This document shows positions 32,132-54,902 of a stretch of 64,000 nt of DNA, one piece after another. The DNA lies in NCBI GenBank assembly GCA_026708055.1, contig JAPOVS010000022.1, forward strand, positions 1-64,000. Direction: 5' to 3'. The translations under genes were made by a program, and so were the position numbers. The notes below the pieces were generated by a model. It worked only from the letters and a program-made list of their open reading frames with translations. It ran no database searches and was not told where the DNA came from. Source of the DNA: a bacterium (GTDB lineage: Bacteria; Actinomycetota; Acidimicrobiia; Acidimicrobiales; CATQHL01). Positions within the stretch are counted from its first letter, which is position 1; every line of letters begins with the position of its first letter.

Positions 32132-33781
32132 TCAGCGGTCGCCGGCGACACGGGTGTGCGCCGCCACGAAACGCTGCACCCCCGCCAGGTCGTTGTCCAA
32201 CTCGACGCAGCGCTCGGGCCGCTCGCCCAGGTCGGCGAGGTGCTCGGGAAGCTCGGGGCGGCGCCCGCAGGCTCGCGCCACGGCGTCGGGGAACTTGGCC
32301 GGATGCGCCGTGGCCAGCACTACCAGCGGGACCTCCGGGTCGCGCCGGGCGGTCGTTGCCGCGCCCACACCCACCGCGGTGTGCGGATCGATCATCATCC
32401 CGGTGCGGTCGTAGGTGTCGCCGATGACCGCCAGCGTCTGCGCCTCGCCGACCCGGGCCCCCGACCAGAGGGGAGACAGCCCGGCGGCCGGACCCGGCGG
32501 CAGCTCGGCCTCGCCGGCGGCACGGAAGCCCTCCAGCAACGCGGCGGTGGCGGCACCGTCGCGGCCGTTCAACTCGAACAGCAGCCGCTCCAGGTTGGAC
32601 GACACCTGGATGTCCATGCTCGGCGACATGGTGGGCATCACCCGGCGGATCTCCAGGCGGGCCGAGTCGAAGAAACGGGTGAGGATGTCGTTGACGTTGC
32701 TGCCGACCACGAACTGCTCCACGCCGAGGCCCATGCGGTGCGCCGCGTACCCGGCGTACACGTTGCCGAAATTGCCGGTCGGCACGGCGAAGCTCACCGG
32801 CCGGGCGGCCCCCGCGCCGGCGAGGGCCCGGGCCGCCACCACGTAGTAGACGATCTGGGCCATGACCCTGGCGAAGTTGATGGAGTTCACCGCCGCCAGC
32901 CGGTGCCGGCCGCGGAAGGCCTCGTCGGCGAACATGGCCTTCACCAGGTCCTGGCAGTCGTCGAAGCTGCCGTCGAGGGCGATGTTGTGCACGTTGGCGG
33001 AGGGCACCGTGGTCATCTGGCGGCGCTGCACCTCCGAGACGCGGCCGCGCGGGTGCAGCACGAAGATGTCGAGAGAGTCGCGGTCGCGGCACGCCTCGAT
33101 GGCGGCCGAGCCGGTGTCGCCCGAGGTTGCCCCCACGATGGTGACCCGCTCGCCGCGCCGGGCCAGCTCGTGGTCGAACAGCCTGCCCACCAGCTGCAGG
33201 GCGATGTCCTTGAACGCCAGCGTGGGCCCGTGGAACAGCTCCATGAGCCAGAGGCCCTCGCCCTCGTCGAGGGGGACGAGGGGGGCCACGTCGGGATGCT
33301 CGAACGTGGCGTAGGCCTCGGCGGTGAGCTGCTCGAAGGCCTGCCTGTCGATCTGGCCTGCCACGAACGGCCACATGACCTCGACGGCGGTCTGGGCGTA
33401 GTCGGACAGCGGGCGTCCGGGTGGGGACGCCGGTGGCGCTCCGGCGGCCTCTGAAAATGGCACGCCTGCGCTAGCCACCGGCATCCCCACCCCCAGTTGG
33501 TTATCACCATCGGCAGCGGTGCCGGTGGCCGTCGGCGGATCGTCTGGCGAAATCGATCCGGCGCCGGCCCCCCGCACCCCCGCCACTCCGTCATTCCGGC
33601 GAAGAGCCTGCCCCGGACTCGATCCGGGGCCGGAATCTAGAGTGCTGCCATGACGCACGGCCAGGGTGGGCCAAGTCGCCGGCACGTAGAGACCGCCGTC
33701 GGTTGCGAGGCCAGCGAGCAGGACGTCGGCGAAGGCCAGTTCGGGGGCTCGGCCGCGGGTGGAGACGTAGCTGAGGCTCAT
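32132..33781 (-). CDS. thrC: Threonine synthase with a repeat-derived in-frame insert
   Basis: A PLP enzyme converting O-phosphohomoserine to threonine (549 residues). The normal N-terminus is clear (YVSTRGRAPELAFADVLLAG, then DGGLYVPATWP). Residues about 41-123 are foreign low-complexity sequence, and the family pattern resumes at PLSDYAQTAVEVMWPFVAG. The PLP lysine is K191 in GPTLAFKDIALQLVG, with later GATSGDTGSAAIEAC, LQVSSNLERLLFE-type and IDPHTAVGVG. The insert DNA (33413-33661) comprises repeats D4, A3 and B2. The ATG overlaps the hom stop (ATGA). Confidence 0.95.
   Translation of the reverse strand: MSLSYVSTRGRAPELAFADVLLAGLATDGGLYVPATWPTLAVRHGSTLDSGPGSSPGQALRRNDGVAGVRGAGAGSISPDDPPTATGTAADGDNQLGVGMPVASAGVPFSEAAGAPPASPPGRPLSDYAQTAVEVMWPFVAGQIDRQAFEQLTAEAYATFEHPDVAPLVPLDEGEGLWLMELFHGPTLAFKDIALQLVGRLFDHELARRGERVTIVGATSGDTGSAAIEACRDRDSLDIFVLHPRGRVSEVQRRQMTTVPSANVHNIALDGSFDDCQDLVKAMFADEAFRGRHRLAAVNSINFARVMAQIVYYVVAARALAGAGAARPVSFAVPTGNFGNVYAGYAAHRMGLGVEQFVVGSNVNDILTRFFDSARLEIRRVMPTMSPSMDIQVSSNLERLLFELNGRDGAATAALLEGFRAAGEAELPPGPAAGLSPLWSGARVGEAQTLAVIGDTYDRTGMMIDPHTAVGVGAATTARRDPEVPLVVLATAHPAKFPDAVARACGRRPELPEHLADLGERPERCVELDNDLAGVQRFVAAHTRVAGDR
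33421..33490 (-). repeat. Palindromic repeat family B, copy B2 (inside thrC)
   Basis: A 70-base element with 17-base ends: GTGGGGACGCCGGTGGC (33421-33437) and GCCACCGGCATCCCCAC (33474-33490), one mismatch. The central part matches B1 at 23581-23655. It is translated as part of ThrC residues about 97-120. Confidence 0.85.
33522..33566 (-). repeat. Palindromic repeat family A, copy A3 (inside thrC)
   Basis: All 45 bases are identical to 7068-7112 (intergenic copy A1) and contain the CGGATCG/CGATCCG hairpin. Translated as ThrC residues about 72-87. Confidence 0.9.
33589..33641 (-). repeat. Short palindromic repeat family D, copy D4 (inside thrC)
   Basis: CGTCATTCCGGC and CCGGAATCTAG arms of family D, with a longer centre (GAAGAGCCTGCCCCGGACTC...) than the other copies. 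Translated as ThrC residues about 48-64, including the LRRND string typical of this repeat. Confidence 0.8.
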
Positions 33782-35226
33782 TCGTCGGCGATGACCCGCA
33801 GCACGCTGCCCACCTGCCGGACCGCTTCGAGGTGGCGCAGGTCGTCGAGCGTCGCCCGCATGTCGCTCTCGCAGGCCACGTGAGTGATGAAGATGATGCG
33901 GGCCTCCTCGCCGAGGCCCTCCTGGGTCATGGAGCGGATCGACACGCCGTGTTGGCCGAACACCCCGGCCACCGCGGCCAGCACGCCCGGCCGGTCGATC
34001 ACCTCCAGCGCCAGGTAGTAGGCGGTGCGGAGCTCGCCGATGGGGTGGATGCGGGCGGGCGCCATGGGCGGCGGGCCGCCCGCGGCGCCGCGGCGGAGGT
34101 TGGCGGCGGCGTCGATGAGGTCGCCGAGGACCGCCGAGGCGGTGGGGCGGCCGCCGGCGCCGCGGCCGTAGAGCATCAACTCGCCGGAAGCCTCGCCCTC
34201 CACGAACACGGCGTTGAAGCTGTCGCGCACCGACGCCAGCGGATGGTCCTCCGGCACCATCGCCGGATGCACCCGCACCGCGATCGTCGGGACCGGGGGG
34301 CCCGAGGCGCTGCTCTGCTCCTCGGTGCGGGGCGAAGAGTCGTCGCAGCCCGGCCCCCCGACCCCGCCCCCTCCCTTCGCCGCCTCAGCCGGGTGGGTCT
34401 CCTCAGCGTCGACGCGTTCAGCGATGGCCAGGAGCTTGATGACGTGGCCCAAGCGGCGGGCGAAGGTGATGTCGTCGGCGCTGAGGGTGGAGATTCCCTC
34501 GCAGTGCACGTCGGCCGCGGTCACCTCGGCGCCGAAAGCGACGGCGGCCATGATGGCGGCCTTGGCGGCGGCGTCGTGGCCCTCCACATCCGCGCGGGGA
34601 TCGGCCTCGGCGTAGCCCAACGCCTGGGCCTCGGCCAGGGCGTCGAGGTAGCTGGAACCGCCCGTCGTCATGCGGCTCAGGATGTAGTTGGTGGTGCCGT
34701 TGACGATGCCCATGATGCGGCGCACCGACTCGCCCGCCAGGGACTCCCGCAGCGCCCGCACCAGCGGGATGGCCCCGCCCACCGCCGCCTCGAACAGCAG
34801 ATCCACGCTGGCGGCGCGGGCCGCGGCGAACAGTTCGGCGCCGTGGTCGGCGATGACCTCCTTGTTGGCCGTGACCACGGGCTTGCCGGCAGCCAGCGCC
34901 GCCAGCAGCAACTCCCGGGCCGGCTCGATGCCGCCGATGAGCTCCACCACCACGTCGGTGTCGGGGCGCGCCACCACCGCTGCGGCGTCGCCGGTCAGCA
35001 GCTCGGCCGCCACACCCGGTCGGGATCGCTCCGGCGAGCGCACCGCCACGGCGACCGGCACGAGCTCGGTGCCGCAGCGGGCGGCGATCTCGGCCCGCCG
35101 CTCGTCCAGCAGCCCCACCAGCGCGGCGCCGACCGTGCCGCCGCCCAAGATGCCCACGCCGATTCGCACCGGAGCAGAGGAAGCCGCGGGCGCGGCACCG
35201 GACCCAGCAGAAGAGGGAGCAACCAT
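33778..35226 (-). CDS. hom: Homoserine dehydrogenase with in-frame insert
   Basis: 482 residues. Reduces aspartate semialdehyde to homoserine for Thr and Met. Marks are the NAD(P) site IGVGILGGGTVGAALVGLL (22-40), VVTANKEVIADHG (117-129), FEAAVGGAIPLVRAL, MGIVNGTTNYILSRM, GYAEADPRADVEGHDAAAK, and a C-terminal ACT domain (RPGVLAAVAGVFGQHGVSI). Residues about 272-314 are a Gly/Ser-rich insert that coincides with repeat C3. ATG 35226 is the likely start: TAGCGT ends 7 bases upstream and it precedes a short Ala/Ser-rich N-terminus. It is the first gene of the long leftward operon. Confidence 0.96.
   Translation of the reverse strand: MVAPSSAGSGAAPAASSAPVRIGVGILGGGTVGAALVGLLDERRAEIAARCGTELVPVAVAVRSPERSRPGVAAELLTGDAAAVVARPDTDVVVELIGGIEPARELLLAALAAGKPVVTANKEVIADHGAELFAAARAASVDLLFEAAVGGAIPLVRALRESLAGESVRRIMGIVNGTTNYILSRMTTGGSSYLDALAEAQALGYAEADPRADVEGHDAAAKAAIMAAVAFGAEVTAADVHCEGISTLSADDITFARRLGHVIKLLAIAERVDAEETHPAEAAKGGGGVGGPGCDDSSPRTEEQSSASGPPVPTIAVRVHPAMVPEDHPLASVRDSFNAVFVEGEASGELMLYGRGAGGRPTASAVLGDLIDAAANLRRGAAGGPPPMAPARIHPIGELRTAYYLALEVIDRPGVLAAVAGVFGQHGVSIRSMTQEGLGEEARIIFITHVACESDMRATLDDLRHLEAVRQVGSVLRVIADE
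34290..34376 (-). repeat. Palindromic repeat family C, copy C3 (inside hom)
   Basis: GGGACCGGGGGGCCCG (34290-34305) can pair with CGGCCCCCCGACCCC (34351-34365). The minus-strand core GGGGCCGGGCTGCGACGACT aligns to C1 and C2. It encodes the foreign Gly/Ser-rich stretch of Hom in frame. Confidence 0.8.
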
Positions 35227-35364
35227 CCCGCTCACGCTACCGGCGCAGCCGCCCACCGCCCGCCGCAGATCCAGCCTCCGGCTGGACAGACCGGACAACA
35301 ATCTCCACGAGCCGCCAAGCTGCTCGGCAGCACGTTCAGATCCTGAGGCAAGCTTCCGCGGGCT

Positions 35365-35853
35365 CTACCCGAATCTCGCCCCCAAGTTGCGCATCATCTC
35401 GAAAGTGTCCTCGTAGGGCACTTCGAGGTGACTGCAAGCATCAGGGATCTTGACCTTCTTCCGACTTGCACCAGCCAGCGTTTCCAGAGTCACGATCGTC
35501 GCACCAACGGCCGCCGCGGCACCCACGAGAAATGGATCAGCGCAGCTCATGAAGTCCTCGACCACATGTTCGCGATACCCCTCGCCGCGAGCCCAATCTC
35601 CCAGGTCGGAGACATGTCCCGCTACCTCCGAGGAGGCGGAGCTCACATGGAACAGGAGTTCGCGCCGGCTGCCGACCCAGTGGGCCAGTTCGTCGCCTCC
35701 ATCCTTGAGTTCCTGGTACACGAGGTCGGTTGACGCCAGCACCCCGGCGGTCGCCCGACCCTCCAGCCACGTCCAGAACGCAGGCACCAGATCGAATCCG
35801 TAGTATGTGTTCTTCGCCGTTATGAACACGTTGGCATCAAGCAGGCGGAGCAC
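35365..35853 (-). CDS. DUF4411 PIN-like toxin
   Basis: 162 residues. Starts MLRLLDANVFITAKNTYYGFD, with the PIN-fold acidic residue in LLDANVF and further acidic positions in STDLVYQELKDGG and CADPFLVGAAAAVGATIVTLE. The family (DUF4411) is a PIN-like ribonuclease usually paired with an Xre/COG2856 protein, exactly as here. The start is GTG 35853, overlapping the partner's stop codon by one base. Base composition is less GC-extreme than in neighbouring genes, suggesting transfer. Confidence 0.85.
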   Translation of the reverse strand: MLRLLDANVFITAKNTYYGFDLVPAFWTWLEGRATAGVLASTDLVYQELKDGGDELAHWVGSRRELLFHVSSASSEVAGHVSDLGDWARGEGYREHVVEDFMSCADPFLVGAAAAVGATIVTLETLAGASRKKVKIPDACSHLEVPYEDTFEMMRNLGARFG

Positions 35854-37016
35854 TATGTGCCGCCCAGGGAAGCCCGGAGTTTGGGAAGGTTCGCAGGCTT
35901 GACTCCGAGAAGCCGGGAAGCGTCGCGTATCAACATCTCCGACGCGCCGACGCTCTCAAGGACGGCCTCGGTGAGAAGCCGGCTGTTGCGGATCGGGACG
36001 TTCTTGTAGTAGTCGCCCCCCGAAGACGTTGTCGCGCGCTGCGCGTTCCACTTGGCCCGCTCGGCCTCGTAGAGTTCGAAGAATCTCTGGCGGCTGATCG
36101 CCCCGTGCGTCCAGAGTTGTCTGGCGACCATGACGGTCGAGACACGAAACTCTGCAGCTACACCCCCGAGCCATTCGCTCTCCGAGGAGGTCCGGCGCTT
36201 CCAGCTATCAGCGATGCGGTCCCAGGGCAGCAGAACTTCGCCCGCAACTTCATTGCAATACGCCTCGATATGTGTCGACCCGCCTCCCGGGATCGTCAAG
36301 TCTGCGTCCGAGATTCCACCCTCGCCGACCCAGATGTGCGCCAGTTCATGAGCCAGGGTGAAGATCTGGGCGGAGTGACTGTCCGCGTTGTTGATGAAGA
36401 TCACCGGGGCCATGGGATCCGCAATCGAGAAGCCGCGGAACTCCTCGACGCGAAGGGGACGATTCGTCGCCTGGTGAACGACCCCGTTTCTCATGACCAG
36501 GATTCCCAAGGCCTCAACCTGTCGGACAAACGCCCTGAGGAATCGATCTCGCTGGGTTTCGCAACGGACTTCGGAATCAAGATTGAGGCTCAGGGCAATG
36601 TCTGCCGCCACTGCGGAAACCGGGGCTTGGGTCGAGAACCGCCCCACGACCGGGAGGGGGGGCTCATCAGCACCGACCCTGAAGTCCCGGTACCAGTCCT
36701 GGTGCCGCAGGACGTCGGCTATCACGTCGCGAAGGTCGACCGACGGCCTTCGGTAGGCCCCTCCGGGAGCGCGACGGAAGTCGGGAATCGGCAACTCGTC
36801 CACGGGTGGATCAGCGAGGAACAGGTAACCGAACGGCACTCGCAGCCGTTTCGCCAATTGCTGCGCCTGGCTGAATGTCGGAGCCGACGAACCGTCCAAC
36901 CAGCGCTCGACCGTGCTGACCGATTGGCGCAGGGACCTGCTCAGATCATCCGATCCGAGGTCGGCCCGATCCGCCGCCCACTGCAACACCGCGGGATTGA
37001 CGTGGGCGACCGTCAT
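35853..37016 (-). CDS. Xre/ImmA-IrrE family antitoxin-type regulator (COG2856)
   Basis: 387 residues. An N-terminal helix-turn-helix (about 5-55: LGSDDLSRSLRQSVSTVERW, FSQAQQLAKRLRVPFGYLFL) is joined to a C-terminal zinc-metalloprotease-like domain with HELAH (223-227). Such proteins bind their own promoter and neutralise or regulate the neighbouring toxin, here DUF4411. The frame is open to 37052, but ATG 37016 gives the family N-terminus. TATTCT lies 8 bases upstream. It is divergent from the DUF6361 defence-like operon across 250 bases. Confidence 0.88.
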   Translation of the reverse strand: MTVAHVNPAVLQWAADRADLGSDDLSRSLRQSVSTVERWLDGSSAPTFSQAQQLAKRLRVPFGYLFLADPPVDELPIPDFRRAPGGAYRRPSVDLRDVIADVLRHQDWYRDFRVGADEPPLPVVGRFSTQAPVSAVAADIALSLNLDSEVRCETQRDRFLRAFVRQVEALGILVMRNGVVHQATNRPLRVEEFRGFSIADPMAPVIFINNADSHSAQIFTLAHELAHIWVGEGGISDADLTIPGGGSTHIEAYCNEVAGEVLLPWDRIADSWKRRTSSESEWLGGVAAEFRVSTVMVARQLWTHGAISRQRFFELYEAERAKWNAQRATTSSGGDYYKNVPIRNSRLLTEAVLESVGASEMLIRDASRLLGVKPANLPKLRASLGGT

Positions 37017-37203
37017 GCCCAGCCAGAATAGCCACGAACGGCGGCAACTCACATTGCCGTCGGCGGTGCCCCGGGCCGGCCGCCGGGGTTCGCCTTCCGA
37101 GTCAGCGACCGCCAGCGATCTGCGTACCGGATTGCGGGGTCTCCTCGACTGGCTGCTGCTCAGGTTGCCTCAGCCTGCCTGGCAGGCCATCTTCCGCGGT
37201 GCG

Positions 37204-37272
37204 TACTCTGGGTAGCACGTGATTGCGCAACCCCCGCCGGATACTGCCGCAGACCGAGCGCGACGCTCGTGA
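37204..37272 (+). promoter_or_regulatory. Possible promoter and 17-codon leader ORF of the DUF6361 operon
   Basis: TACTCT (37204-37209) precedes GTG 37219, which opens a 17-residue ORF (VIAQPPPDTAADRARRS) ending in TGA 37270-37272. That stop overlaps the GTG of the next gene (GTGA). The arrangement copies the one before the LytR_C gene and may provide coupled translation. Confidence 0.35.
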
Positions 37273-38498
37273 TCGCCCATGCGCCGGAGTCGTCGCTCGG
37301 CTGGCTCGACTTCGATGCGGCCGCCAGCGCGCGAGTGGGCGAGCTGCTGCGTTCGCTGGAGGAGCCCGGCACCCTGGACGAGTTGGGTTTGGGCACCGTG
37401 CGCGACGCCTTCTCGGGGAGGCTCAGCCCCGGCACGACGACCACCCAGACAAGGCTCCGCTACTTCATGTTCGTGCCGTGGATCTTCGCCCGCCTCGAGG
37501 CGCAGCGCGTCGCGCCGGGTGACTTCGCCCGCAGGCTCCGCGAGGACGAGGCGCGGCTCATCGGCTGCCTCCGCCATCTGGGGAAGAACAACGGGGTGAT
37601 CGGCTACGCCGCCGGAAGGGATCTCAAGCTCTTGCCGAGTTGGCTCTACTGGGCCGGCCTGGGCGCCTGGGGGCTGCGGCGTCTCGATCTCAGCATCGCC
37701 GAGTACGGGCAGCGGGCGGCAGCTCTGGGACGCCGTCAGCCCGAGCGCGACGACGACCGCAATCCGACGGCGCGGGCGGTGTCGATGTGGGCGTCCATGC
37801 CGCCGGCGCCCGACGACTTCCTGCAGGAGAACATCACATTCGAGCTGCGTCGCGATGAGGCGCAGGTCCTCGTCGAGTGCATCCGGCGGTGCCAGCCGGG
37901 CACGCTGCTGGCCTTCCTGTGCGGCACGCCGGCCGCCGCGGCGAACGCCCGCTTCCCGTGGGAAGTGCCGACGCACGGGATGCCCGGCGGTCTCGTGGAA
38001 CTCCTGCGCCACGCCCGCTGCTTCTCCGAGCTCACCCTCGGCCCCCAGTTGGTCTACAACGTGCTCCTCGCACGCAAAGCGCGGGCAGAGTTCGGATGGG
38101 ACACCCACGAACTCGAGCAGCGCCAACTCCGCCGCCTCGGCCGCTGGGCCAGGTTGCTCGAGGGCCGACACGAGGAGTTACGCATCTGGGCCGAGAACCT
38201 GCCCGAGTTCTGGCACGTCCTCAGCGAGCGCCGCATCGGCGGCGCCACCCGGGACTTCGTGAACTTCGTGGCCCGGCGGGCGGTGGAGAACCCGGCGGGC
38301 TTCGCCGAGGATCGCTCGGTCCACGATTGCATCGTCGACCGGGAGGTCCGACTCAAGTCGAGGCGCGCGCGCCTCGGCTACCGGGCGGCCCTGGAGAACT
38401 GGGGTCAAGTGCCCGGCGGCGGTCAGTTCAACTACCGGTGGCCGATCACCAAGAGCTACCTCTCCGATCTCGATGTGGCGCTGGGGCCGGTGCCCTGA
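37269..38498 (+). CDS. DUF6361-type protein, first gene of a putative defence operon
   Basis: 409 residues resembling the DUF6361 family. The N-terminus reads SSLGWLDFDAAASARVGELL, then LSPGTTTTQTRLRYFMFVPW and ARRLREDEARLIGCLRHLGKN. Aromatic-rich segments around LPSWLYWAGLGAWGLRRLD follow, with no transmembrane helix and no known catalytic motif. In other genomes such genes neighbour PLD nucleases and helicases, as here. It may sense or load substrate for the complex, which is inference. TGATG couples it to the next gene. Confidence 0.75.
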   Translation: MIAHAPESSLGWLDFDAAASARVGELLRSLEEPGTLDELGLGTVRDAFSGRLSPGTTTTQTRLRYFMFVPWIFARLEAQRVAPGDFARRLREDEARLIGCLRHLGKNNGVIGYAAGRDLKLLPSWLYWAGLGAWGLRRLDLSIAEYGQRAAALGRRQPERDDDRNPTARAVSMWASMPPAPDDFLQENITFELRRDEAQVLVECIRRCQPGTLLAFLCGTPAAAANARFPWEVPTHGMPGGLVELLRHARCFSELTLGPQLVYNVLLARKARAEFGWDTHELEQRQLRRLGRWARLLEGRHEELRIWAENLPEFWHVLSERRIGGATRDFVNFVARRAVENPAGFAEDRSVHDCIVDREVRLKSRRARLGYRAALENWGQVPGGGQFNYRWPITKSYLSDLDVALGPVP

Positions 38499-40402
38499 TG
38501 CTGCAGCCCGCCAACCGCCTGACCCTCCTTGACGCGTTGCGGCCCCCTGCCGGCTTCGGGCTGGAGTCGGCCATGGCCGTGACTTTCACGCTCGACCTCC
38601 GGGCGCTCCTAGCGGCACCCGCTGCGCTGACGCTCACCGGCCCCGACGGCATCGTCCCCGACGACGGCCGCCTCGAACCCATCGAACTGCTGCACGCGCT
38701 GCGCACCCACGCCGACAAGCTCAGCGTGCTCTGCCAAGCCGGCGAGATCGCCCTGCCGCCCTCGCGGCGGGTGTTCGCCTTCCTCGAGGGGGCGGTCATC
38801 CCCGTTCGTGCGCCGCGAGGCGGGGTCGTACACCCCAAGGTGTGGGTGCTGCGCTACGAGGCCGGCGAGGCACCGCCGGACGCGCCGCCCGACGGTGCGG
38901 GGCGACAGCGGGCGCTCCGGGTGCTCGTCGCCAGCCGGAACCTCACGTTCGACGCGAGCTGGGACGCCTTGGTCCGCCTCGACGAAACGAGCGCCGCGGA
39001 CGGCGTGTCGCTGGAACCCGTGGGCGACCTGTTCGGCGGACTCCTCGAATACGCGGTCGGCGAGGTCGGCGAGGTCCATCGCAACCGCGTGCGATCCCTG
39101 GCGGACGCTCTCGGGTCGGCCAGGTTCGCCCTGCCCGGCGGTGCGCAGGAGCTGCGCACCCACGTACTGGGCCTGACGCAGCGGTCTTCGCCGCTGCCGG
39201 ATGCCGCCGAGCGGTCGCTGATCATCTCGCCGTTCGTGAGCGACGACTTCTTCACGAGGGTGCATCCGCGACCGGTGGACGAGCCCGTCAGCACCCCGGA
39301 GGCGCGAGACGGCCAGGACATCAGCGCCGCCGCCCAGACCCCCCAAGTGATCGAACTCGTCAGCACGCAAGAGTCCCTGGACGGCCTCGATCCGGTGTCA
39401 CTCGAGGGTATGAATACCGTTCACACCTTCGACGACGCCAGCGTGCCGGATCTCGCGGATGCCGAAGACTCCGACTCACCCAACGACCCGGGCCGGCCGC
39501 TGGCGGGGTTGCACGCCAAGGTCTTCGCCTTCGAGCGCGACGGCCGGGCGCATCTGTTCCTCGGATCGGCGAACGCCACCGGTGCAGCATTCGGCGCCAA
39601 TGTCGAGATCCTGTTGGAACTCGTGGGCGCCACAGAGGCGCTCGGCATCGACCGGCTCTGCGTCGGCAGTGAGGACGAGCCAGGGCTCCGGGAGCTGTTC
39701 CGGAGCTACCGCCGACCCGAACCGACTCCTGAACCGGACGACGAAGGCCGAGGAGCGCTGGACAGCGCTCGCCGGGCCATCGCCCAGCTTCATTTCGCGG
39801 GATCCGTCGAACGCAGCGGCACCGGCTGGGCGGTCACGTACCGGACGTCTGAGCCTCTGCGGGCACCCGACGGCACGGAGATCCACTGCTGGCCGCTGGC
39901 GTCCGCGGGGAACCGGAGACGGGTTGTCGCCGGTGAACCTCTGGAGGCTCGCTTCGAGACGATCCTCGAAGCCATTTCCGGCTTCCTGGCATTCGAGCTC
40001 ACTCACTCCGACGACGAGGAGGCCCGGACTGGCTTCGTCGTCCCGGTCCCGCTCGACGGCGTGCCGGAGGAGCGTGAGGGTTCCCTGCTGCGCGCCCTCG
40101 TGGGGAACGCCGAGCGCTTCTTCCGCTACCTCTTGGCGCTGCTGGACGAGGACCCGGACCACGTGAGCCTGCTCGACGCCGTCGAGGGCGCCGCCAGAGG
40201 CCCCGCTGGCGGCGGGGGCGGTTCGTCGAGCCTGCCGGTCCTGGAGAAGTTGCTGCGCACGATGCGACGGGACCCCGCCAAGCTCGCCGGGCTGCACCCG
40301 CTCGTGGGCGACCTGGCCGAGGACGGCGCGCTGCCGCCGGGCTTCGCCGAACTCTGGAAGACGATCCACGAGGTGGCGCACACCGGGACGCCGGACCGAT
40401 GA
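38498..40402 (+). CDS. PLD-superfamily nuclease-like protein
   Basis: 634 residues with two half-sites of the phospholipase D fold. The first has HPKVW (about 112) with VLVASRNLTFDASWD. The second has GLHAKVFAF (H about 339) with LFLGSANATGAAFG. The HxK plus SxN pattern is that of PLD nucleases rather than lipases. An acidic segment (about 260-335) sits between the halves and a helical C-terminus follows. It starts at ATG 38498 inside the DUF6361 stop (TGATG) and ends inside the helicase start (ATGA). It probably cleaves nucleic acid processed by the helicase. Confidence 0.85.
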   Translation: MLQPANRLTLLDALRPPAGFGLESAMAVTFTLDLRALLAAPAALTLTGPDGIVPDDGRLEPIELLHALRTHADKLSVLCQAGEIALPPSRRVFAFLEGAVIPVRAPRGGVVHPKVWVLRYEAGEAPPDAPPDGAGRQRALRVLVASRNLTFDASWDALVRLDETSAADGVSLEPVGDLFGGLLEYAVGEVGEVHRNRVRSLADALGSARFALPGGAQELRTHVLGLTQRSSPLPDAAERSLIISPFVSDDFFTRVHPRPVDEPVSTPEARDGQDISAAAQTPQVIELVSTQESLDGLDPVSLEGMNTVHTFDDASVPDLADAEDSDSPNDPGRPLAGLHAKVFAFERDGRAHLFLGSANATGAAFGANVEILLELVGATEALGIDRLCVGSEDEPGLRELFRSYRRPEPTPEPDDEGRGALDSARRAIAQLHFAGSVERSGTGWAVTYRTSEPLRAPDGTEIHCWPLASAGNRRRVVAGEPLEARFETILEAISGFLAFELTHSDDEEARTGFVVPVPLDGVPEEREGSLLRALVGNAERFFRYLLALLDEDPDHVSLLDAVEGAARGPAGGGGGSSSLPVLEKLLRTMRRDPAKLAGLHPLVGDLAEDGALPPGFAELWKTIHEVAHTGTPDR

Positions 40403-43400
40403 CCGCGCCGGACGTCGACGCCGAGGCGGTCCTGACCGACCTGAAGGACTTCCAGAGGCGGACCGCCCGCTGGGCCTTCCAGCGGATGTACACCGCCGCC
40501 GATCCCGCCACCCGGTTCCTCGTGGCCGACGAGGTGGGGCTCGGCAAGACGCATGTCGCCAAAGGCGTGGTCGCCCAGGTCATCGACCACCTGCGGCGCA
40601 CCGGCGACGAGCGCCACGACATCGTCTACATCTGCTCGAACGGCGCCATCGCCCGCCAGAACCTTCGCAAGCTGGCGCCCGAGGGCGTCGAGCCCATCGA
40701 GTCCGTGGACCGGCTCACCATGCTCCCGCTGGTGAACCTGAACCAGGACAATCCCGGTCGGGGAGGCGTCAACCTGCTGGCCATCACCCCCGGAACCTCG
40801 CTCCAGTTCGGGCGCGGCACCGGCAAGTTCACCGAGCGCTGCCTCGCCTACACGTTCCTGCGCGCCATCTGGGGCGCGAGTGCAATGGGTGCGCCGGCGC
40901 GCCGGGTGTTCTGGCACGGCATCAGGGTCGACCCCGATGAGCGGCTGCGCTGGTGGGAGCAGTACTACCGCCCGCGCATCCAGGGGTCGCTCGAAGACTT
41001 CAAAAGGCTGCTGGAAGAGACCGAACGGGCGAGGCGCGCCCGCGGCGCGCGGACCCTGCGCGAGCTCTTCGACCAACTCGTCGAAGGGCTGCGCTGGCAG
41101 CGCACGTTCCCCGGGGACCTGCTCGGAAAGCGCTGGTGGTTCATCGCCGGCGTGCGGCGCATCATGGCGAACGTCGGCGTCGCCGCGCTGCAACCCGACC
41201 TGGTGATCCTGGACGAGTTCCAGCGCTTCAAGGACCTGCTGCGACCCGATCCTCAGAACTTCGCCGCCAACGTGGCGCACCGGATGTTCAACTACACCGA
41301 CCCGCAGACCGGCCGCACCACGCGGACGCTGCTGCTGTCCGCCACCCCGTACCGCATGTACACCACCGGCGACGAGCCCGACAGCGACCACTACGAGGAC
41401 TTCTACGAGACCTGCTCGTTCCTGCTCGGGGATCCGGCGCGGACCGAGGAGCTGCGGGACCGGTTCGGCGATCTCCGGCTGGCGCTCACCTCCGCCGACT
41501 CGCTGGGGCGCGCCGAGGAGATCTGCGTGGAGATCCAGGGCCGACTGCGCGGCGTGATGGCGCGGACCGAGCGACTGGCGGCGACGCCGGACCGCGACGG
41601 GATGCTGCACGAGCCAGAAGCGCACGTAGAGGTGAAGTCGCACGACCTGCGCGCCTACCTCCGCTTCGGGGATCTGGCCGAGTCCGTGAAGCACCACGAG
41701 CCCGCCGAGTACTGGAAGTCCGCGCCGTACCTCGTCAACTTCATGGAGGGCTACAAGCTGAAGGAGACCATCGTGTCGGCCGCAGCGGACGGCCGCCTCG
41801 GGGACGGCGCGGGGCTCGAAGCGGGTCCGGGCCTGCTGAGTTGGGAGGATGTGGAGGCCTACGAGCGCATCGACCCCCAGAACGGGCGACTCCGCTGGCT
41901 GCTCGACGACTTGCATCGCCACCGCGCCTTCGATCTGCTCTGGATCCCCCCGTCCCTGCGCTACTACGACACCGGGTCGGTCTACGAGAGCCCGGAGGCC
42001 GCCACCTTCACCAAGAGGCTCATCTTCTCGGGATGGGCGGTGGTCCCCAAAGTCGTCTCGTCGCTGGCCAGCTTCGAGGCCGAGCGCCGCGCCTACAGCG
42101 GACGCAGCCACGCCTACACCGCCAACTACGGGCGACGCGGCGGGCAGCGCCTCACCTTGCGCACCAGCGAGCGCACAACCGAAGCAGCGAGGCCCGGAGA
42201 GGCGGCCGGCGACAGTCGAGCCGCGGCGATGACCACGTTCCTGCTCACCTGGCCGAGCCCGACCCTCGCAGAACTGGGAGACCCCCGGCCACTGCCGGGC
42301 GACCCGCGCCGTTGCGTCAGCGGCGTGCCCGGCGAGGTGGCAGCGGCAGACCGACCAGTCGTCGGGGGAGGCCAGGCGGGCCGCCGCGTCACCGACCTGC
42401 TCGCCGAGGTGAAAGCTCGCATTGCGAAGGCCATCGAAGCCCTTGTCCTAACCGCACCCGCCGAGGGCGCGGTCGACCGGAGGTGGTACTGGGCGGCGCC
42501 CCTGCTCCTCGACCAGCAACGTCATCCGTCGGCGACGCACCGCCTGCTGGCCCTGAACGACCTCAGCCACTGGGAGGGTGAGCAGGTTGACCGCGGGCTC
42601 CGGGCGCACGTCGCCGAAGCCAAGGCCATGCTCGAATACAGTCCCGGGCCGTCCTCCGGCGACCATTGCCGACCTTCATCCGGGTCCGAAGCCAGGCCCA
42701 CGGGCGAAGACGGTCGCCACGCTCTCGGACGCCCGCCCGACGACCTCACGACAGTGCTGGCCGAGTTGGCGGTCGGCGGGCCGGCGCAGTGCGCGCTGCG
42801 GGCGATCGCTGCGGTCGCGGGGCTACCTCTCGACAATGAGTCTGCCGTGGTACACGCCGCTCGGGCTGCGGGCGCGTTCCGGAGCTTCTTCAACGCCCCC
42901 GAGGTCACCGGCACCATCGTCGGCGGGAGCTCGGAGGAGTCCGAGACCGAAGAGGGCGGCGGGCGTTACTGGCATGACGTCCTTCGGCACTCGATCATCG
43001 GGAACCTCCAAGCGGTGCTGGACGAGCACGCCCATGTGCTCCGTGACTGGCTCGGGTACCTGAGTCTGGGAGCCGACGAGCGGCGCGCCGCGCTGGCCGC
43101 CGACATCGCCGGCCACCTCAAAGAGGCCTTGGAGTTGCGCACCTCCTCGTTCCGGGTGGACGTGCCCCGGCCGGCGCAGGACAGCCGCCGCGTCGAGTTC
43201 GACGCCCGCCGTATGCGCACCCGCTTCGCCGTCGCCTTCGGCAACCAGGCTCTCGAAGGCGGCGGCGAGGTGCGGGCCGAGTCGCTCTCCAGAGCGTTCA
43301 ACTCGCCGTTCTGGCCCTTCGTGATGGCCTCCACGTCGGTCGGGCAGGAGGGACTGGACTTCCATCTCTGGTGCCACGCCGTCGTCCACTGGAACCTGCC

Positions 43401-44079
43401 CGCCAACCCCGTCGACCTCGAGCAGCGCGAGGGGCGCGTCCACCGCTACAAGGGCCACGCCGTCCGCCGGAACATCGCCGCGACCTTCGGCCCGGACCTG
43501 CTCACCGAGGGGCGGGCCAGCGGCGGCGACCCGTGGAGCCGACTCTTCGAGCGGGCCGTCCCGGAAAGACCGACGGACAGCGGCGAGATGGTTCCTTACT
43601 GGGTTTTCCACGCCGGACCGGCGAAGATCGAACGCCATGTGCCCGTCATGCCGTTCAGCCGCGACGCGGCGGCGCTGCCGAAGCTGCGCAAATCGCTCGC
43701 CGCCTACCGCCTCGCCTTCGGCCAACCCCGCCAGGAGGAGCTGGTGGAGTTCCTCGGCGCCGACCGCTCCGACGCCGACCTCCTCCGGCTGGCGTCGCGG
43801 CTCCGCATCGACCTGTCGCCTCCCGAGCGGGGCACGCGCCCGGCCGGAGATGACGACCTTGGGGGCGGCCTCGCCGACGAACCCCCGCCGCTGCTCGGGC
43901 ACACAACCGGCCAGCAGGCGTTGCCGGCGGGCGCCGCTCCCGGGCCCGCCCCCACTCAGGCACACAACCAGCCCGAAGGCTCCTCAACTCCCCGCGAGAG
44001 GCTGAGTTCGCCTGATCCATGGTGGCGACGCCTCGGGACGTCCCGCCCCTACAGGTCGAGGCGGAGGAGATCCTCGTAG
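40399..44079 (+). CDS. Large SNF2-type superfamily 2 helicase
   Basis: 1226 residues. Helicase motifs are Walker A VADEVGLGKTHVAKG (43-57), DEFQ box LVILDEFQRF (about 273), motif III LLLSATPYRM (about 313), and the C-terminal lobe with STSVGQEGLDFHLW and motif VI QREGRVHRYKG (about 1009). The DEFQ box and GLGKT match SNF2-like translocases. Three stretches (about 587-660, 747-777 and 1154-1226) look low-complexity and unrelated to helicase folds. It is the last gene of the DUF6361-PLD-helicase operon and its 3' end overlaps lysA, which is convergent, by 31 bases. Confidence 0.9.
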   Translation: MTAPDVDAEAVLTDLKDFQRRTARWAFQRMYTAADPATRFLVADEVGLGKTHVAKGVVAQVIDHLRRTGDERHDIVYICSNGAIARQNLRKLAPEGVEPIESVDRLTMLPLVNLNQDNPGRGGVNLLAITPGTSLQFGRGTGKFTERCLAYTFLRAIWGASAMGAPARRVFWHGIRVDPDERLRWWEQYYRPRIQGSLEDFKRLLEETERARRARGARTLRELFDQLVEGLRWQRTFPGDLLGKRWWFIAGVRRIMANVGVAALQPDLVILDEFQRFKDLLRPDPQNFAANVAHRMFNYTDPQTGRTTRTLLLSATPYRMYTTGDEPDSDHYEDFYETCSFLLGDPARTEELRDRFGDLRLALTSADSLGRAEEICVEIQGRLRGVMARTERLAATPDRDGMLHEPEAHVEVKSHDLRAYLRFGDLAESVKHHEPAEYWKSAPYLVNFMEGYKLKETIVSAAADGRLGDGAGLEAGPGLLSWEDVEAYERIDPQNGRLRWLLDDLHRHRAFDLLWIPPSLRYYDTGSVYESPEAATFTKRLIFSGWAVVPKVVSSLASFEAERRAYSGRSHAYTANYGRRGGQRLTLRTSERTTEAARPGEAAGDSRAAAMTTFLLTWPSPTLAELGDPRPLPGDPRRCVSGVPGEVAAADRPVVGGGQAGRRVTDLLAEVKARIAKAIEALVLTAPAEGAVDRRWYWAAPLLLDQQRHPSATHRLLALNDLSHWEGEQVDRGLRAHVAEAKAMLEYSPGPSSGDHCRPSSGSEARPTGEDGRHALGRPPDDLTTVLAELAVGGPAQCALRAIAAVAGLPLDNESAVVHAARAAGAFRSFFNAPEVTGTIVGGSSEESETEEGGGRYWHDVLRHSIIGNLQAVLDEHAHVLRDWLGYLSLGADERRAALAADIAGHLKEALELRTSSFRVDVPRPAQDSRRVEFDARRMRTRFAVAFGNQALEGGGEVRAESLSRAFNSPFWPFVMASTSVGQEGLDFHLWCHAVVHWNLPANPVDLEQREGRVHRYKGHAVRRNIAATFGPDLLTEGRASGGDPWSRLFERAVPERPTDSGEMVPYWVFHAGPAKIERHVPVMPFSRDAAALPKLRKSLAAYRLAFGQPRQEELVEFLGADRSDADLLRLASRLRIDLSPPERGTRPAGDDDLGGGLADEPPPLLGHTTGQQALPAGAAPGPAPTQAHNQPEGSSTPRERLSSPDPWWRRLGTSRPYRSRRRRSS

Positions 44080-48189: not shown

Positions 48190-48624
48190 TCAGCCCGATC
48201 GATCCAGCCAGGTCTGAAGGGTCTGGGTGGTCCAGGTGGGGACACCGGTGCCCAGGAGATCGTTGTCGTTCGTCCACACCGCGGCGCTCAGGGCCAGGGC
48301 ACAAGCAACGACCGGCCAGTCGTCGGGATCTCGCTGCGAGCGCGCCCGCGCCTCCTCCTCGAACGGCGAGTAGACCTCGGCGGCGACGACTGCCAGGTTG
48401 TTGTCCACCGCATCGAGGCACAGAATCAACAGGTCGTCCCGTTCAGCCGCAGCGAACCCGGCGGACGCCGCGACGGCACCGATGCGTCGAGGCAACTCAG
48501 CATGAACTTCGCCCAGTGTGTGCTCGGGGATACACAGGTCCAAGCGGTGGTCGCTGAGCCGCTCCCTTCCCCTGATCCGCAGTAGGTCGGCCACCAGCAC
48601 GCTGGTGTCGACCACCAGCAGCAT
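48190..48624 (-). CDS. vapC: VapC-type PIN-domain toxin
   Basis: 144 residues. PIN ribonuclease fold with acidic residues in LLVVDTSVLVADLL (D6), PEHTLGEVHAEL, DPDDWPVVACALALSAAVWTNDNDLLG. Such toxins cut RNA and are held inactive by the adjacent antitoxin. The ATG shares one base with the antitoxin stop (TGATG). It converges on the SDR gene. Confidence 0.88.
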   Translation of the reverse strand: MLLVVDTSVLVADLLRIRGRERLSDHRLDLCIPEHTLGEVHAELPRRIGAVAASAGFAAAERDDLLILCLDAVDNNLAVVAAEVYSPFEEEARARSQRDPDDWPVVACALALSAAVWTNDNDLLGTGVPTWTTQTLQTWLDRSG

Positions 48625-48878
48625 CAGCTCGTTCGGCTCCCGGGGACGACCGCCTCGACGAGGTCCTCCTCGTCCAAACCTGTCCGGTCAAGCACCCGCT
48701 GGACCGCTTCGCCGACGCGGTCCAGCGATTGGCGAACCTCCTGGCGGCTTCTCTTGGGTGCCGGAACCGGCACGAAAAAGCCGATCGGCTTGCCGTGGCG
48801 TTCGATGCGGATCGTCTCGCCCAGCTTCATCAACGCGGTCGCGTGATCCCTGAACTCCCTGACCCCGACCGAGCGCAT
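48624..48878 (-). CDS. vapB: VapB/Phd-type antitoxin
   Basis: About 84 residues. The N-terminus reads RSVGVREFRDHATALMKLGE with IRIERHGKPIGFFVPV, the Phd/YefM-type DNA-binding fold. The C-terminal tail is charged and should wrap the VapC toxin. ATG 48878 has GGAGG 6 bases upstream; a GTG three bases earlier is also possible. The pair probably represses itself through the palindrome at 48895-48918. Confidence 0.85.
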   Translation of the reverse strand: MRSVGVREFRDHATALMKLGETIRIERHGKPIGFFVPVPAPKRSRQEVRQSLDRVGEAVQRVLDRTGLDEEDLVEAVVPGSRTS

Positions 48879-48894
48879 CACAGACCTCCACTCG

Positions 48895-51452: not shown

Positions 51453-52382
51453 ATAGCGTCAAACACTGTCGGGCAAGCACCCCCGCCACCGCCCGACGAT
51501 CGGGATGAGGCACTGCACCAAGTCCTCGACGACGGGGTCGTTTGGGGGGACGCGGAACTCTGGCTGGAGCGTCTGCCGGCAGAGTCGGTGGACCTGTTCT
51601 TCACCTCGCCCCCCTATGCCGACGCTCGGGCTTACTCGCGGATCCACCCGGACAACTACGTCGAGTGGTTCCTGCCCTTCGCCGCGGCGATGCGCGAGGC
51701 AACAGGCCCGACCGGATCGTTCGTGCTCAACATCAAGAACCGGGTGGCGAAATCAGGAGAACTGCAGGGCCAGCGTCACCCGTACGTCTACGAGTTGGTG
51801 CTCGCCATGCAAAGGATGGGTTGGCGGTGGGTCGAGACGTACATCTGGGCCAAGCCGAACGCCATCCCCGGCCGGTTCGGGCCGCGGACCAAGGACAGCT
51901 TCGAGTACGTGTACCACTTCGCCAAAGGGCCCAAGCCGTTCTTCGACCTCGACGCGGTGCGAGTCCCCTACAAGGCCGATCCGGCAGAGATCGCCAGGCG
52001 GCTCGGCGACCCCAACGGCCGCAAGAACACCGACGCCGGGTTCGGTCGGGACAGGACCAAGACCTACGGTTGCGGCGGCGCCGATCCGGGAAACGTCATC
52101 GCCGTCAGCCAGAGCTACAACCAGCACCACGGTCCGGCAGGACGCCACACCGCCGTCATGCCCGAGGGCCTCGCGGAGTTCTTCGTGAAGCTGGCCTGCC
52201 CACCCGGCGGGGTTGTCGTGGACCCGTTTGCAGGGTCGGGCACCACGATGGTCGCGGCGCGCCGCCACGGACGGCGGGCCGGTGGAATCGAGTTGCTCGA
52301 CGAATACGTCGCCGTGGCGACCGAACGGCTCGCCGACGACTGCGTCCAGGAGGAGTTGGGGCTACTCCGTGTCGCTATCTGA
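51453..52382 (+). CDS. Orphan beta-type DNA methyltransferase (N4-C or N6-A) with non-standard start
   Basis: SAM-dependent DNA methyltransferase of permuted (beta) order: the catalytic motif FFTSPPY comes first, then the target region (TYIWAKPNAIPGRFGPRTKD), and the SAM motif VVDPFAGSGTT near the end. The first ordinary start, GTG 51588, begins right at VDLFFTSPPY and would remove the expected WGDAELWLERLPAES lead-in, which is encoded in frame upstream. No ATG, GTG or TTG lies in that open stretch (51423-51587). TATCAT ends 6 bases before an in-frame ATA at 51453, copying the leaderless spacing seen elsewhere, so I place the start there. No restriction enzyme is adjacent. Confidence 0.8.
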   Translation: MASNTVGQAPPPPPDDRDEALHQVLDDGVVWGDAELWLERLPAESVDLFFTSPPYADARAYSRIHPDNYVEWFLPFAAAMREATGPTGSFVLNIKNRVAKSGELQGQRHPYVYELVLAMQRMGWRWVETYIWAKPNAIPGRFGPRTKDSFEYVYHFAKGPKPFFDLDAVRVPYKADPAEIARRLGDPNGRKNTDAGFGRDRTKTYGCGGADPGNVIAVSQSYNQHHGPAGRHTAVMPEGLAEFFVKLACPPGGVVVDPFAGSGTTMVAARRHGRRAGGIELLDEYVAVATERLADDCVQEELGLLRVAI

Positions 52383-52489: not shown

Positions 52490-52789
52490 TCACGCCACCG
52501 GGGTCCGCCGACGCTTCAAGCGCACATCCACGTCGTAGCCGAACACGCGCGCCACGGCGTGAAGGGTCTCGAGGCGCGGGCTGTGTCCCGCCGACTCGAG
52601 ACGGGAGATCGCGCTGCGCGGCACTCCTACGGCTTCGGCGAGTTGCTGCTGCGTCCAGTTCCGTTGCTCGCGCAGGGCGCGCAGCTGGCCGACTATCGCG
52701 CGCCTCAGTCGCAGCGTCTCGTACTCCGCCTGGATTTCGGCGTCGTCGGCGACGATCTCTTCAATGTGCGCTCGGGCGTTGCTGGCCAT
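52490..52789 (-). CDS. higA: HigA-type Xre antitoxin
   Basis: 99 residues. C-terminal helix-turn-helix (LREQRNWTQQQLAEAVGVPR, SAISRLESAGHSPRLETL) with a basic tail. The order toxin then antitoxin is that of higBA systems. ATG 52789 has GAGGAG 5 bases upstream and overlaps the end of higB by 29 bases. It should repress the locus promoter at 53130-53158. Confidence 0.88.
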   Translation of the reverse strand: MASNARAHIEEIVADDAEIQAEYETLRLRRAIVGQLRALREQRNWTQQQLAEAVGVPRSAISRLESAGHSPRLETLHAVARVFGYDVDVRLKRRRTPVA

Positions 52790-53129
52790 GACGGCTCCTC
52801 CAATCCGCAAGCCGCCGCCGGGCGGTGGCGAGTTCTCGTCTATCAAGGGTCTGAGACCGCTTTCGCCACGCGTGGAGGAGGACGTATCTGCCTCCAAGTA
52901 CGGCGAAAGCGATCCGGTGCGAGCGGGGCCGCAGCTCGAAGATGCGCTCGGCGCGGTCGATGATCCGGGATTCGGGCATACGCAGCGCGCTCCCCCGTTC
53001 CTCAAGTTCCACAATCAGGTCGAGGATCGCCGCCACGTCGCGCTTGTCCCCCGAGCGCCCAAGTCATTCCACGTAGTCCGCTACAGGCTCGTCGCCTCTG
53101 GCCGTCCCGTAGTAGACGACATCCGGCAC
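52761..53129 (-). pseudogene. higB: HigB-type toxin interrupted by a TGA codon
   Basis: Read from GTG 53129, the frame encodes a HigB/RelE-like toxin: PDVVYYGTARGDEPVADYVE, then a TGA (53066-53064), then LGRSGDKRDVAAILDLIVEL and the toxin core ending YVLLHAWRKRSQTLDRRE. Both halves are in one frame and match the family layout, so a single base change, for example TGG to TGA, has cut the protein after residue 21. TACACT ends exactly 6 bases before the GTG, supporting that start. A fragment from ATG 53036 could still be made, but it lacks the first strand. Confidence 0.8.
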
Positions 53130-53166: not shown

Positions 53167-54846
53167 TCAGAGCGGGCGGTATTCCAGCAGCGACGACTGA
53201 CCTCTCATCGCCACGAACCTCACGTCACACGCGTTGCCGTGGGCGTCTTGGAGACGAAGGATCTCCTCGCCGACGGCGAAGTGGACCGCGCCGGAGCTGA
53301 GGGCGCCGTTGACAGCCACGTTGTCTGTGTACAGACACGTACGCCCGTCCCCGTCGAGTATCGGGTCGAGTCGGCCTTCGATGCCCGGCAGGGACCCGGT
53401 CCGGTCTTCGAAGATTGCCGAGCCGCCGCCGACCAGCGGCACCAACTCGACGCTCAAGGCGCCCTCAGCCGGAACCCAACCTGTCGATACGTGGGCGCTC
53501 AGATCCGGCCCTGCGACGAACACCGTCATCGGCACGTCCTCGGTGTGGAGGTCGAGGCGGGCCACACCCCTCGCGTCGGTCGTCGCGCCGCGTCTCGTGC
53601 CGTTGGGAAACAGCGCCAGGACAGCCGCAGCGTCAACCGGGGCGCCCTCGCTGCCGACGATCACCGCCGTGTGGGTGTCGAATCGGCTCAGTGCCGCAGG
53701 GAATCTCCCGAGCGGCACCACGTCGACCTCCGACCGAGACTGCTGATTGTCGCCGCCGAAGACAACGGTCCGGGCCGTAATGCCGGGGACAGTCGCGGCG
53801 ACACGGTGCAACGGCCCGAACCAGTCGGAGGCCACGGTTGCCCCCGACTTGATCTCGACGGCATGGATGCCGCGCCCAGTCTCCTGGAACAGGTCGCATT
53901 CCAGCCCGCCCGATTCCCGGTAGAAGCTGAGCCGGGGATGGCGCCCGCGGTTGAAGCTGTGCTTCATCGCTTCGGCGACCACCATGTTCTCGAACAGTTG
54001 GCCGCGCAACGGGTGGGTCGCTACTTGGCTCGGTTCACCGATCCCCAGCAGGTGGCTGGCGAGGCCGACGTCGTAGAAGTAGATCTTCGGCGACTTCACC
54101 AGCCGCTTTCGAATGTTGGCGAAATACGGCGGCAACAGGAAGGCGATGTAGCTGCGCTCGAGCACGGCCAGCCAATGCCGGACGGTCGTGTGTGTCACCC
54201 CCGCGTCCGCGCCTAGCTGTGCCGAGTTGACGAGTTGCCCGACTCGTCCTGCGCACAGCGCCGAGAACCGTCGGAATGCCGAGAGGTCGCCGACGCCGCC
54301 CATCCGGCGGACATCCCTCTCGACGTAAGTGTCGAAGTAGTCGGCCAGCGCCTGTCGCGGCTCGAGTCGCTGGTCGATGATGCGCGGGTAGAAGCCCCTG
54401 TACGCGATCTCGGCGAACGCATCTGCCCCGCCCGCCCGGCGACTCTCCTCGAACGAGAACGGAAGCAGGCGCAGCTGCGCTATCCGGCCGGCCAGAGACT
54501 CGCCGACCGCCTCGTTCAGCTTGAAGTTCTCGCTGCCGGTGAGCACGTACAAGCCGTTCGCGCCGCGGGCATCGGCCGCTTCCTTCAGATACGAGAAGAG
54601 CGACGGCACATGCTGGACTTCGTCGATGACCGCCGGCGTGCCGAGGTCGCGCAGGAATCCCCGCGGATCGCGCTCGGCTCGCTCACGGACATCGAGCGCG
54701 TCCAAGCTGGCGTAGCTGACCTCAGCGTCGTCGAAGAGGGACTGGCACAGCGTCGTCTTGCCGGACTGGCGCGGCCCGGTCACCGACACGAACGGGTACT
54801 GTCGGAACAGTTTCAGTACAAGATCGGCAATCTCTCGACGAATCAC
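53167..54846 (-). CDS. AAA-type ATPase with DUF4143 and an extra C-terminal domain
   Basis: 559 residues from GTG 54846. Walker A VTGPRQSGKTTLCQSL, Walker B TPAVIDEVQHVPSLF, LYVLTGSENFKLNEAV, then DUF4143 with the winged-helix segment and PKIYFYDVGLASHLLG and GGLECDLFQETGRGIHAVEIKSG (nuclease-like fold). Most relatives end near residue 400; this one has a further 160 residues rich in beta strands (FDTHTAVIVGSEGAPVDAAA and on). The frame is open to TTG 54888, but TATGAT ends 6 bases before GTG 54846, which also gives the usual VIRREI start. Role unknown; often in mobile regions. Confidence 0.85.
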   Translation of the reverse strand: MIRREIADLVLKLFRQYPFVSVTGPRQSGKTTLCQSLFDDAEVSYASLDALDVRERAERDPRGFLRDLGTPAVIDEVQHVPSLFSYLKEAADARGANGLYVLTGSENFKLNEAVGESLAGRIAQLRLLPFSFEESRRAGGADAFAEIAYRGFYPRIIDQRLEPRQALADYFDTYVERDVRRMGGVGDLSAFRRFSALCAGRVGQLVNSAQLGADAGVTHTTVRHWLAVLERSYIAFLLPPYFANIRKRLVKSPKIYFYDVGLASHLLGIGEPSQVATHPLRGQLFENMVVAEAMKHSFNRGRHPRLSFYRESGGLECDLFQETGRGIHAVEIKSGATVASDWFGPLHRVAATVPGITARTVVFGGDNQQSRSEVDVVPLGRFPAALSRFDTHTAVIVGSEGAPVDAAAVLALFPNGTRRGATTDARGVARLDLHTEDVPMTVFVAGPDLSAHVSTGWVPAEGALSVELVPLVGGGSAIFEDRTGSLPGIEGRLDPILDGDGRTCLYTDNVAVNGALSSGAVHFAVGEEILRLQDAHGNACDVRFVAMRGQSSLLEYRPL

Positions 54847-54869
54847 AGAGTCATCATAACAACGGGTAC

Positions 54870-54902
54870 GTGTAATCTGAAAGCTCAAGTTTCAGATTAC
54901 AC
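54870..54902. promoter_or_regulatory. Perfect 13-base palindrome upstream of the DUF4143 ATPase
   Basis: GTGTAATCTGAAA - 7 bases - TTTCAGATTACAC, AT-rich and perfect. It overlaps the expected -35 region of the ATPase promoter (-10 TATGAT), so it may be an operator. It could equally be a hairpin left by a mobile element. Confidence 0.5.

Follow-up and report, generated by a model that had tools for sequence, protein, structure and literature searches.

An apparently intact Azaca (ZacABC) operon between lysA and hom of an uncultured Acidimicrobiia genome

Three coupled genes in a 64,000-nucleotide stretch of contig JAPOVS010000022.1 (the window), which comes from an uncultured Acidimicrobiia lineage, raise the question of whether they form a new defence system. 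The first-pass annotation regarded them as an unnamed candidate operon. Judged from the sequences of its proteins, the trio is almost certainly a complete copy of Azaca, an anti-phage defence system already named in 2022, and thus not new. The features concerned are as follows.

33778-35301, hom (longest ORF)
35267-44048, inserted block of about 8.8 kb between hom and lysA, delimited by alignment with related genomes
35365-35853, minus strand, DUF4411 (PIN-like) putative toxin; Pfam PF14367, E 1.3e-43
35853-37052, minus strand, Xre + ImmA/IrrE-type antitoxin/regulator; Pfam Peptidase_M78, E 1.3e-16, and weak HTH_3
37269-38498, plus strand, zacA, DUF6361 protein of 409 aa, GTG start
38498-40402, plus strand, zacB, PLD-superfamily protein of 634 aa with two half-sites (HPK/SRN and HAK/GSANAT/NxE)
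40399-44079, plus strand, zacC, SF2 (SNF2/RapA-like) helicase/translocase of 1226 aa
44049-45323, strand opposite to zacC, lysA

Identity of the operon

The three open reading frames (409, 634 and 1226 codons) lie on the plus strand and overlap by stop and start, as had been read by eye: the junction of zacA and zacB is TGATG at 38496-38500, and that of zacB and zacC is ATGA at 40399-40402. A further overlap, GTGA, had been placed in front of zacA. It does exist, at 37269-37272, but its partner is a 17-codon mini-ORF (37219-37272), and a search upstream of zacA in the relatives gave no conserved counterpart. The mini-ORF was therefore rejected as a coupled leader; in other words, the operon proper begins at 37269 and not at 37219.

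For each protein, a separate PADLOC model of Azaca matches almost the whole length. The ZacA model PDLC03828 covers residues 8-405 of the zacA product (profile 3-394 of 396; E 7.7e-102), the ZacB model PDLC03829 covers residues 1-628 of the zacB product (profile 1-582 of 586; E 4e-142), and the ZacC model PDLC03830 covers residues 6-1142 of the zacC product (profile 4-1017 of 1019; E 1.4e-300). ZacA, ZacB and ZacC are all present, adjacent, on the same strand and in the order A-B-C. Three coupled frames with E-values down to 1e-300 are no chance pattern. All other PADLOC matches of the trio are confined to a short stretch at the C-terminal helicase motifs or to one PLD half-site. In the Pfam scan, DUF6361 was recognized in ZacA (PF19888, E 4e-45), as had been proposed; PLD stayed below threshold in ZacB, and ZacC gave a short Helicase_C match only. 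This weak signal for ZacB and ZacC is the reason why the trio seemed unnamed by eye. An exact match to a named system had been set beforehand as the refutation of novelty, and such a match was found, so that the claim of an unnamed system falls. The more general claim, a helicase and PLD nuclease operon for anti-phage defence, is borne out.

ZacA and ZacB are presumably the Azaca protein names, which agree with the names of the PADLOC models, and the system was reportedly named in Millman et al. 2022 in Cell Host Microbe. In the literature, Azaca from Millman et al. 2022 is described as having a PLD-like domain (PMC10952713), and ZacC is listed as its SF1/SF2 helicase (PMC12278908). It has been placed among the systems of unknown mechanism and is enriched in Actinobacteria (PMC10482375); its mechanism is still given as unknown in a 2026 review (PMC12926258). 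Among the papers mentioning Azaca that were consulted or listed, no mechanistic one was found, and a search for a paper on DUF6361 also gave none.

The combination of a helicase and a PLD protein recalls other systems. Like Azaca, DISARM pairs an SNF2-like motor (the helicase DrmD) with a PLD nuclease (DrmC), and a helicase + PLD combination is also common to Azaca and Mokosh or the phospholipase D-like anti-phage protein. A new helicase + PLD system, as a variant of DISARM or Mokosh, would draw on weak local matches of ZacB to DrmC (E 0.0019 and 0.00084) and of ZacC to DrmD and DpdE over the C-terminal helicase motifs. However, the Azaca models match far more strongly, and nearly over the full length, for all three proteins, whereas the curated DISARM cut-offs are missed by more than 100 bits. 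The block has neither a methyltransferase nor a DUF1998 protein, and DUF1998 was absent from the Pfam scan of the trio. From the DISARM set (DrmA, DrmB/DUF1998, DrmC, and DrmD/DrmMI or DrmMII), the trio thus gave partial, sub-threshold matches to DrmC and DrmD only; DrmA, DrmB and the methyltransferase are missing. As for Dpd, the DpdE match spans about 60 residues and scores 53.6 bits where the cut-off is 500, and the trio has no DpdA. The NCBIfam phospholipD_antiphage match reached 26 bits, the cut-off being 1100. Among the results of the PADLOC models, which may or may not include Mokosh, no Mko-named match appeared. In view of the near-full-length Azaca matches, we consider a DISARM or Mokosh variant as the identity of the trio scarcely conceivable. 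To this extent the first-pass annotation, which had set the trio apart from both systems, appears to have been right.

The Xre/ImmA-DUF4411 pair that had been noted beside the trio is present on the minus strand at 35365-37052. It might be a functional part of the locus, either as a regulator or as a guard that fires when Azaca fails, and its position, divergent to zacABC and inside the same inserted block, fits such a role. However, the pair is not beside the other Azaca loci examined, at least five related loci have it with no Azaca alongside, and its GC3 is 0.73-0.76 against 0.86-0.90 for zacABC. A functional part in Azaca is therefore very improbable, and the pair is most plausibly a separate toxin-antitoxin module of more recent arrival.

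Two other groups of genes in the window should be mentioned. A PIN_2-domain protein and the small partner encoded upstream of it (48190-48881, minus strand) form a VapBC-like toxin-antitoxin pair near argS. About 7.5 kb past the Azaca block, a DNA methyltransferase (N6_N4_Mtase; 51588-52382, plus strand), an Xre protein (52490-52810, minus strand) and a DUF4143 AAA ATPase (53167-54888, minus strand; PADLOC PDC-S01) are close together.

Conserved residues of ZacA, ZacB and ZacC

The alignments comprised sequences from Acidimicrobiia and other MAGs, Halomarina, Cronobacter, Bradyrhizobium, Mesorhizobium and a gut contig. In ZacC, GLGKT (residues 47-51), DEFQ (272-275), SAT (314-316) and GQEGLDFH (982-989) are invariant in 15 of 15 homologues, as is the QREGR core of motif VI (1009-1013). 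This agrees with the earlier reading of an SNF2-type helicase of 1226 residues, whose motifs DEVGLGKT, DEFQ, SAT, QEGLDF and QREGRVHR are all present. The nearest profiles outside Azaca are those of the SNF2-type DpdE and DrmD, followed more weakly by RapA; these support the SNF2/RapA-like reading, although they cover the C-terminal helicase domain just in part. No sequence match of ZacC was found in the PDB.

The family-conserved part of ZacC ends at about residue 1142, at or soon after which the relatives stop. The last ~80 residues are a non-conserved tail, whose coding sequence overlaps the 3' end of lysA, on the opposite strand, by 31 bp. This tail, together with internal insertions, explains why the window ZacC has 1226 residues, whereas complete relatives have 1031-1134. 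The tail looks like read-on sequence that arose at the edge of the inserted block, and ZacC can probably do without it.

The two PLD half-sites that had been proposed for the second protein were found on one chain, as H112-x-K114 with N148 and as H339-x-K341 with GSxN at 356-359. They are invariant in all 22 ZacB homologues aligned, in which H112, K114, R147, N148 and D156 of the first part and H339, K341, G356, S357, N359, N368 and E370 of the second are unchanged. ZacB had no sequence match in the PDB and no confident profile match to solved structures. Its AlphaFold2 model (pLDDT 52) was too poor for use, so that a bilobed fold is suggested by the motifs only.

In ZacA, the conserved residues include W12, D37, G40, P54, G55, Y65, E94, W128, F252, S253, E359, K363 and R390. 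The AlphaFold2 model, made from 10 sequences, is all-helical with a mean pLDDT of 77. A fold search with this model against the PDB gave no match with E<1 (the best, at E 1.4, is meaningless), and neither sequence nor profile gave a confident relative there. No ZacA was found in IMG/VR. No catalytic motif known to us is apparent in the protein, and we infer a role as an adaptor or a sensor.

The half-sites are kept in the ZacB homologues and the SF2/SNF2-like motifs in those of ZacC; the system therefore looks intact. Taken as a whole, the locus is very probably a complete, apparently intact Azaca that was acquired horizontally and inserted between lysA and hom.

Insertion site and relatives

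Homology with the related genomes ends at about 35262-35266 and restarts at 44042-44049. In five relatives, lysA and hom are neighbours with a gap of about 30-200 bp that holds no ZacABC. This means that a block of about 8.8 kb was inserted here, and the earlier statement that the block interrupts a conserved housekeeping operon holds, since the hom-lysA neighbourhood is split. In three other relatives, unrelated sequence of 1-2 kb lies at the junction, which suggests that the spot tolerates insertions; the lysA-hom junction may be a small integration spot. Alcohol dehydrogenase-like and PEMT-like genes were seen in insertions of 1-2 kb at this junction (three loci). No direct repeat of at least 11 bases joins the two block boundaries, and for this reason neither a target-site duplication nor an integrase mechanism is claimed. 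No recombinase was seen.

The relatives of zacABC span Acidimicrobiia, Chloroflexi, Proteobacteria and a haloarchaeon. The order A-B-C, with genes that overlap or lie tightly together, was observed in Acidimicrobiia, Chloroflexi, Halomarina, Cronobacter, Bradyrhizobium, Mesorhizobium and a gut "phage" contig. When full-length matches are counted, ZacC is present in three of seven relatives within the genus and absent from all 52 further genomes of the family and order; ZacA is present in 8 of 397 genomes of the phylum sample. The other Acidimicrobiia copies are flanked mostly by metabolic genes (flavin reductase, ABC transporter, PGI, acyl-CoA dehydrogenase, PNPase). Defence-like flanks are occasional: a D12-class DNA methyltransferase (L023), DUF4143 AAA proteins (L023, L024), and IS21 with UvrD (L025). 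On plasmids, the neighbours include an integrase (Cronobacter), HNH (Halomarina), and AbiE and SbcCD-like genes (Bradyrhizobium). The patchy presence, and flanks that differ from copy to copy, indicate horizontal movement of zacABC, and such mixed flanks point to a self-contained cassette for which a defence island is not a constant setting.

The DUF4143 AAA proteins are immediately 3' of zacC in the two Acidimicrobiia genomes (L023:16711-17859 and L024:16758-17882) and share Pfam families with the protein at 53167-54888 of the window. A complete trio is also found at L081:7995-14272 (MT835621.1), an unverified human-gut "Bacteriophage sp." contig. The trio may be an Azaca carried by a phage or prophage, or the contig may be a piece of bacterial DNA that was mislabelled.

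In the four annotated Rhizobiales plasmids inspected (4/4), an AddAB-like pair of a PD-(D/E)XK nuclease and UvrD immediately precedes zacA in the same orientation (L079:887-6954, L082:1-4891, L083:1-5863, L084:1-5868). By position, the pair is probably upstream of zacA in Niveispirillum too. Its PD-(D/E)XK nuclease was found on 60 plasmids in all. The pair is a possible accessory of Azaca.

Proposed mechanism and meaning

ZacC, as an SF2 motor of the SNF2/RapA-like type, would be the sensor; it would engage invading DNA or aberrant DNA intermediates and translocate along them. The nuclease effector would be ZacB, a PLD phosphodiesterase that has both half-sites on a single chain, and the all-helical ZacA might be an adaptor that bridges or restrains ZacB and ZacC. 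As a dsDNA-translocating sensor and motor, ZacC would license cleavage by ZacB. We lean slightly towards such a DNA-cleaving mechanism. A methyltransferase was found neither within the trio nor consistently adjoining it in the loci examined. Since the core has none, self and non-self are probably distinguished by DNA state or replication intermediates and not by a methyl mark. Recognition of a DNA state has been shown for HamAB, the helicase-nuclease pair of Hachiman, which provides a precedent for a helicase-gated nuclease (PMC12278908). The proposed likeness, a helicase sensor gating a nuclease, would be one of mechanism only: the Hachiman helicase is Ski2-like and its nuclease is DUF1837, and both differ from those of Azaca.

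The same proteins might instead act by abortive infection, in which ZacBC degrades DNA indiscriminately, or the targets of ZacB are RNA or membrane lipids, so that the cell dies. Several phosphodiester substrates are open to the PLD fold, and PLD enzymes can also cut RNA or lipids. A methyl mark to protect self is missing, and pairs of a helicase sensor and a nuclease effector, such as Hachiman, can act abortively (PMC12278908). However, the sequence carries no sign of membrane targeting, and we consider abortive infection possible but rather doubtful. Within the favoured model of licensed DNA cleavage, a fuller proposal can be made, tentatively and as an unlikely one: Azaca might be a methylation-independent DNA-state sensor, in which the SNF2/RapA-like translocase licenses the PLD nuclease via a new helical adaptor fold (ZacA), and which in Alphaproteobacteria works with the AddAB-like UvrD/PD-(D/E)XK pair upstream of zacA.

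With the copy described here, an apparently intact Azaca is added from an uncultured lineage of Acidimicrobiia; its insertion site between lysA and hom is clean. Residue-level conservation of the system reaches from Actinobacteriota to Halobacteria. It provides catalytic or structural residues for dissecting Azaca: H112, K114 and N148, and H339, K341 and N359, of ZacB, and K50, D272/E273 and R1010/R1013 of ZacC.
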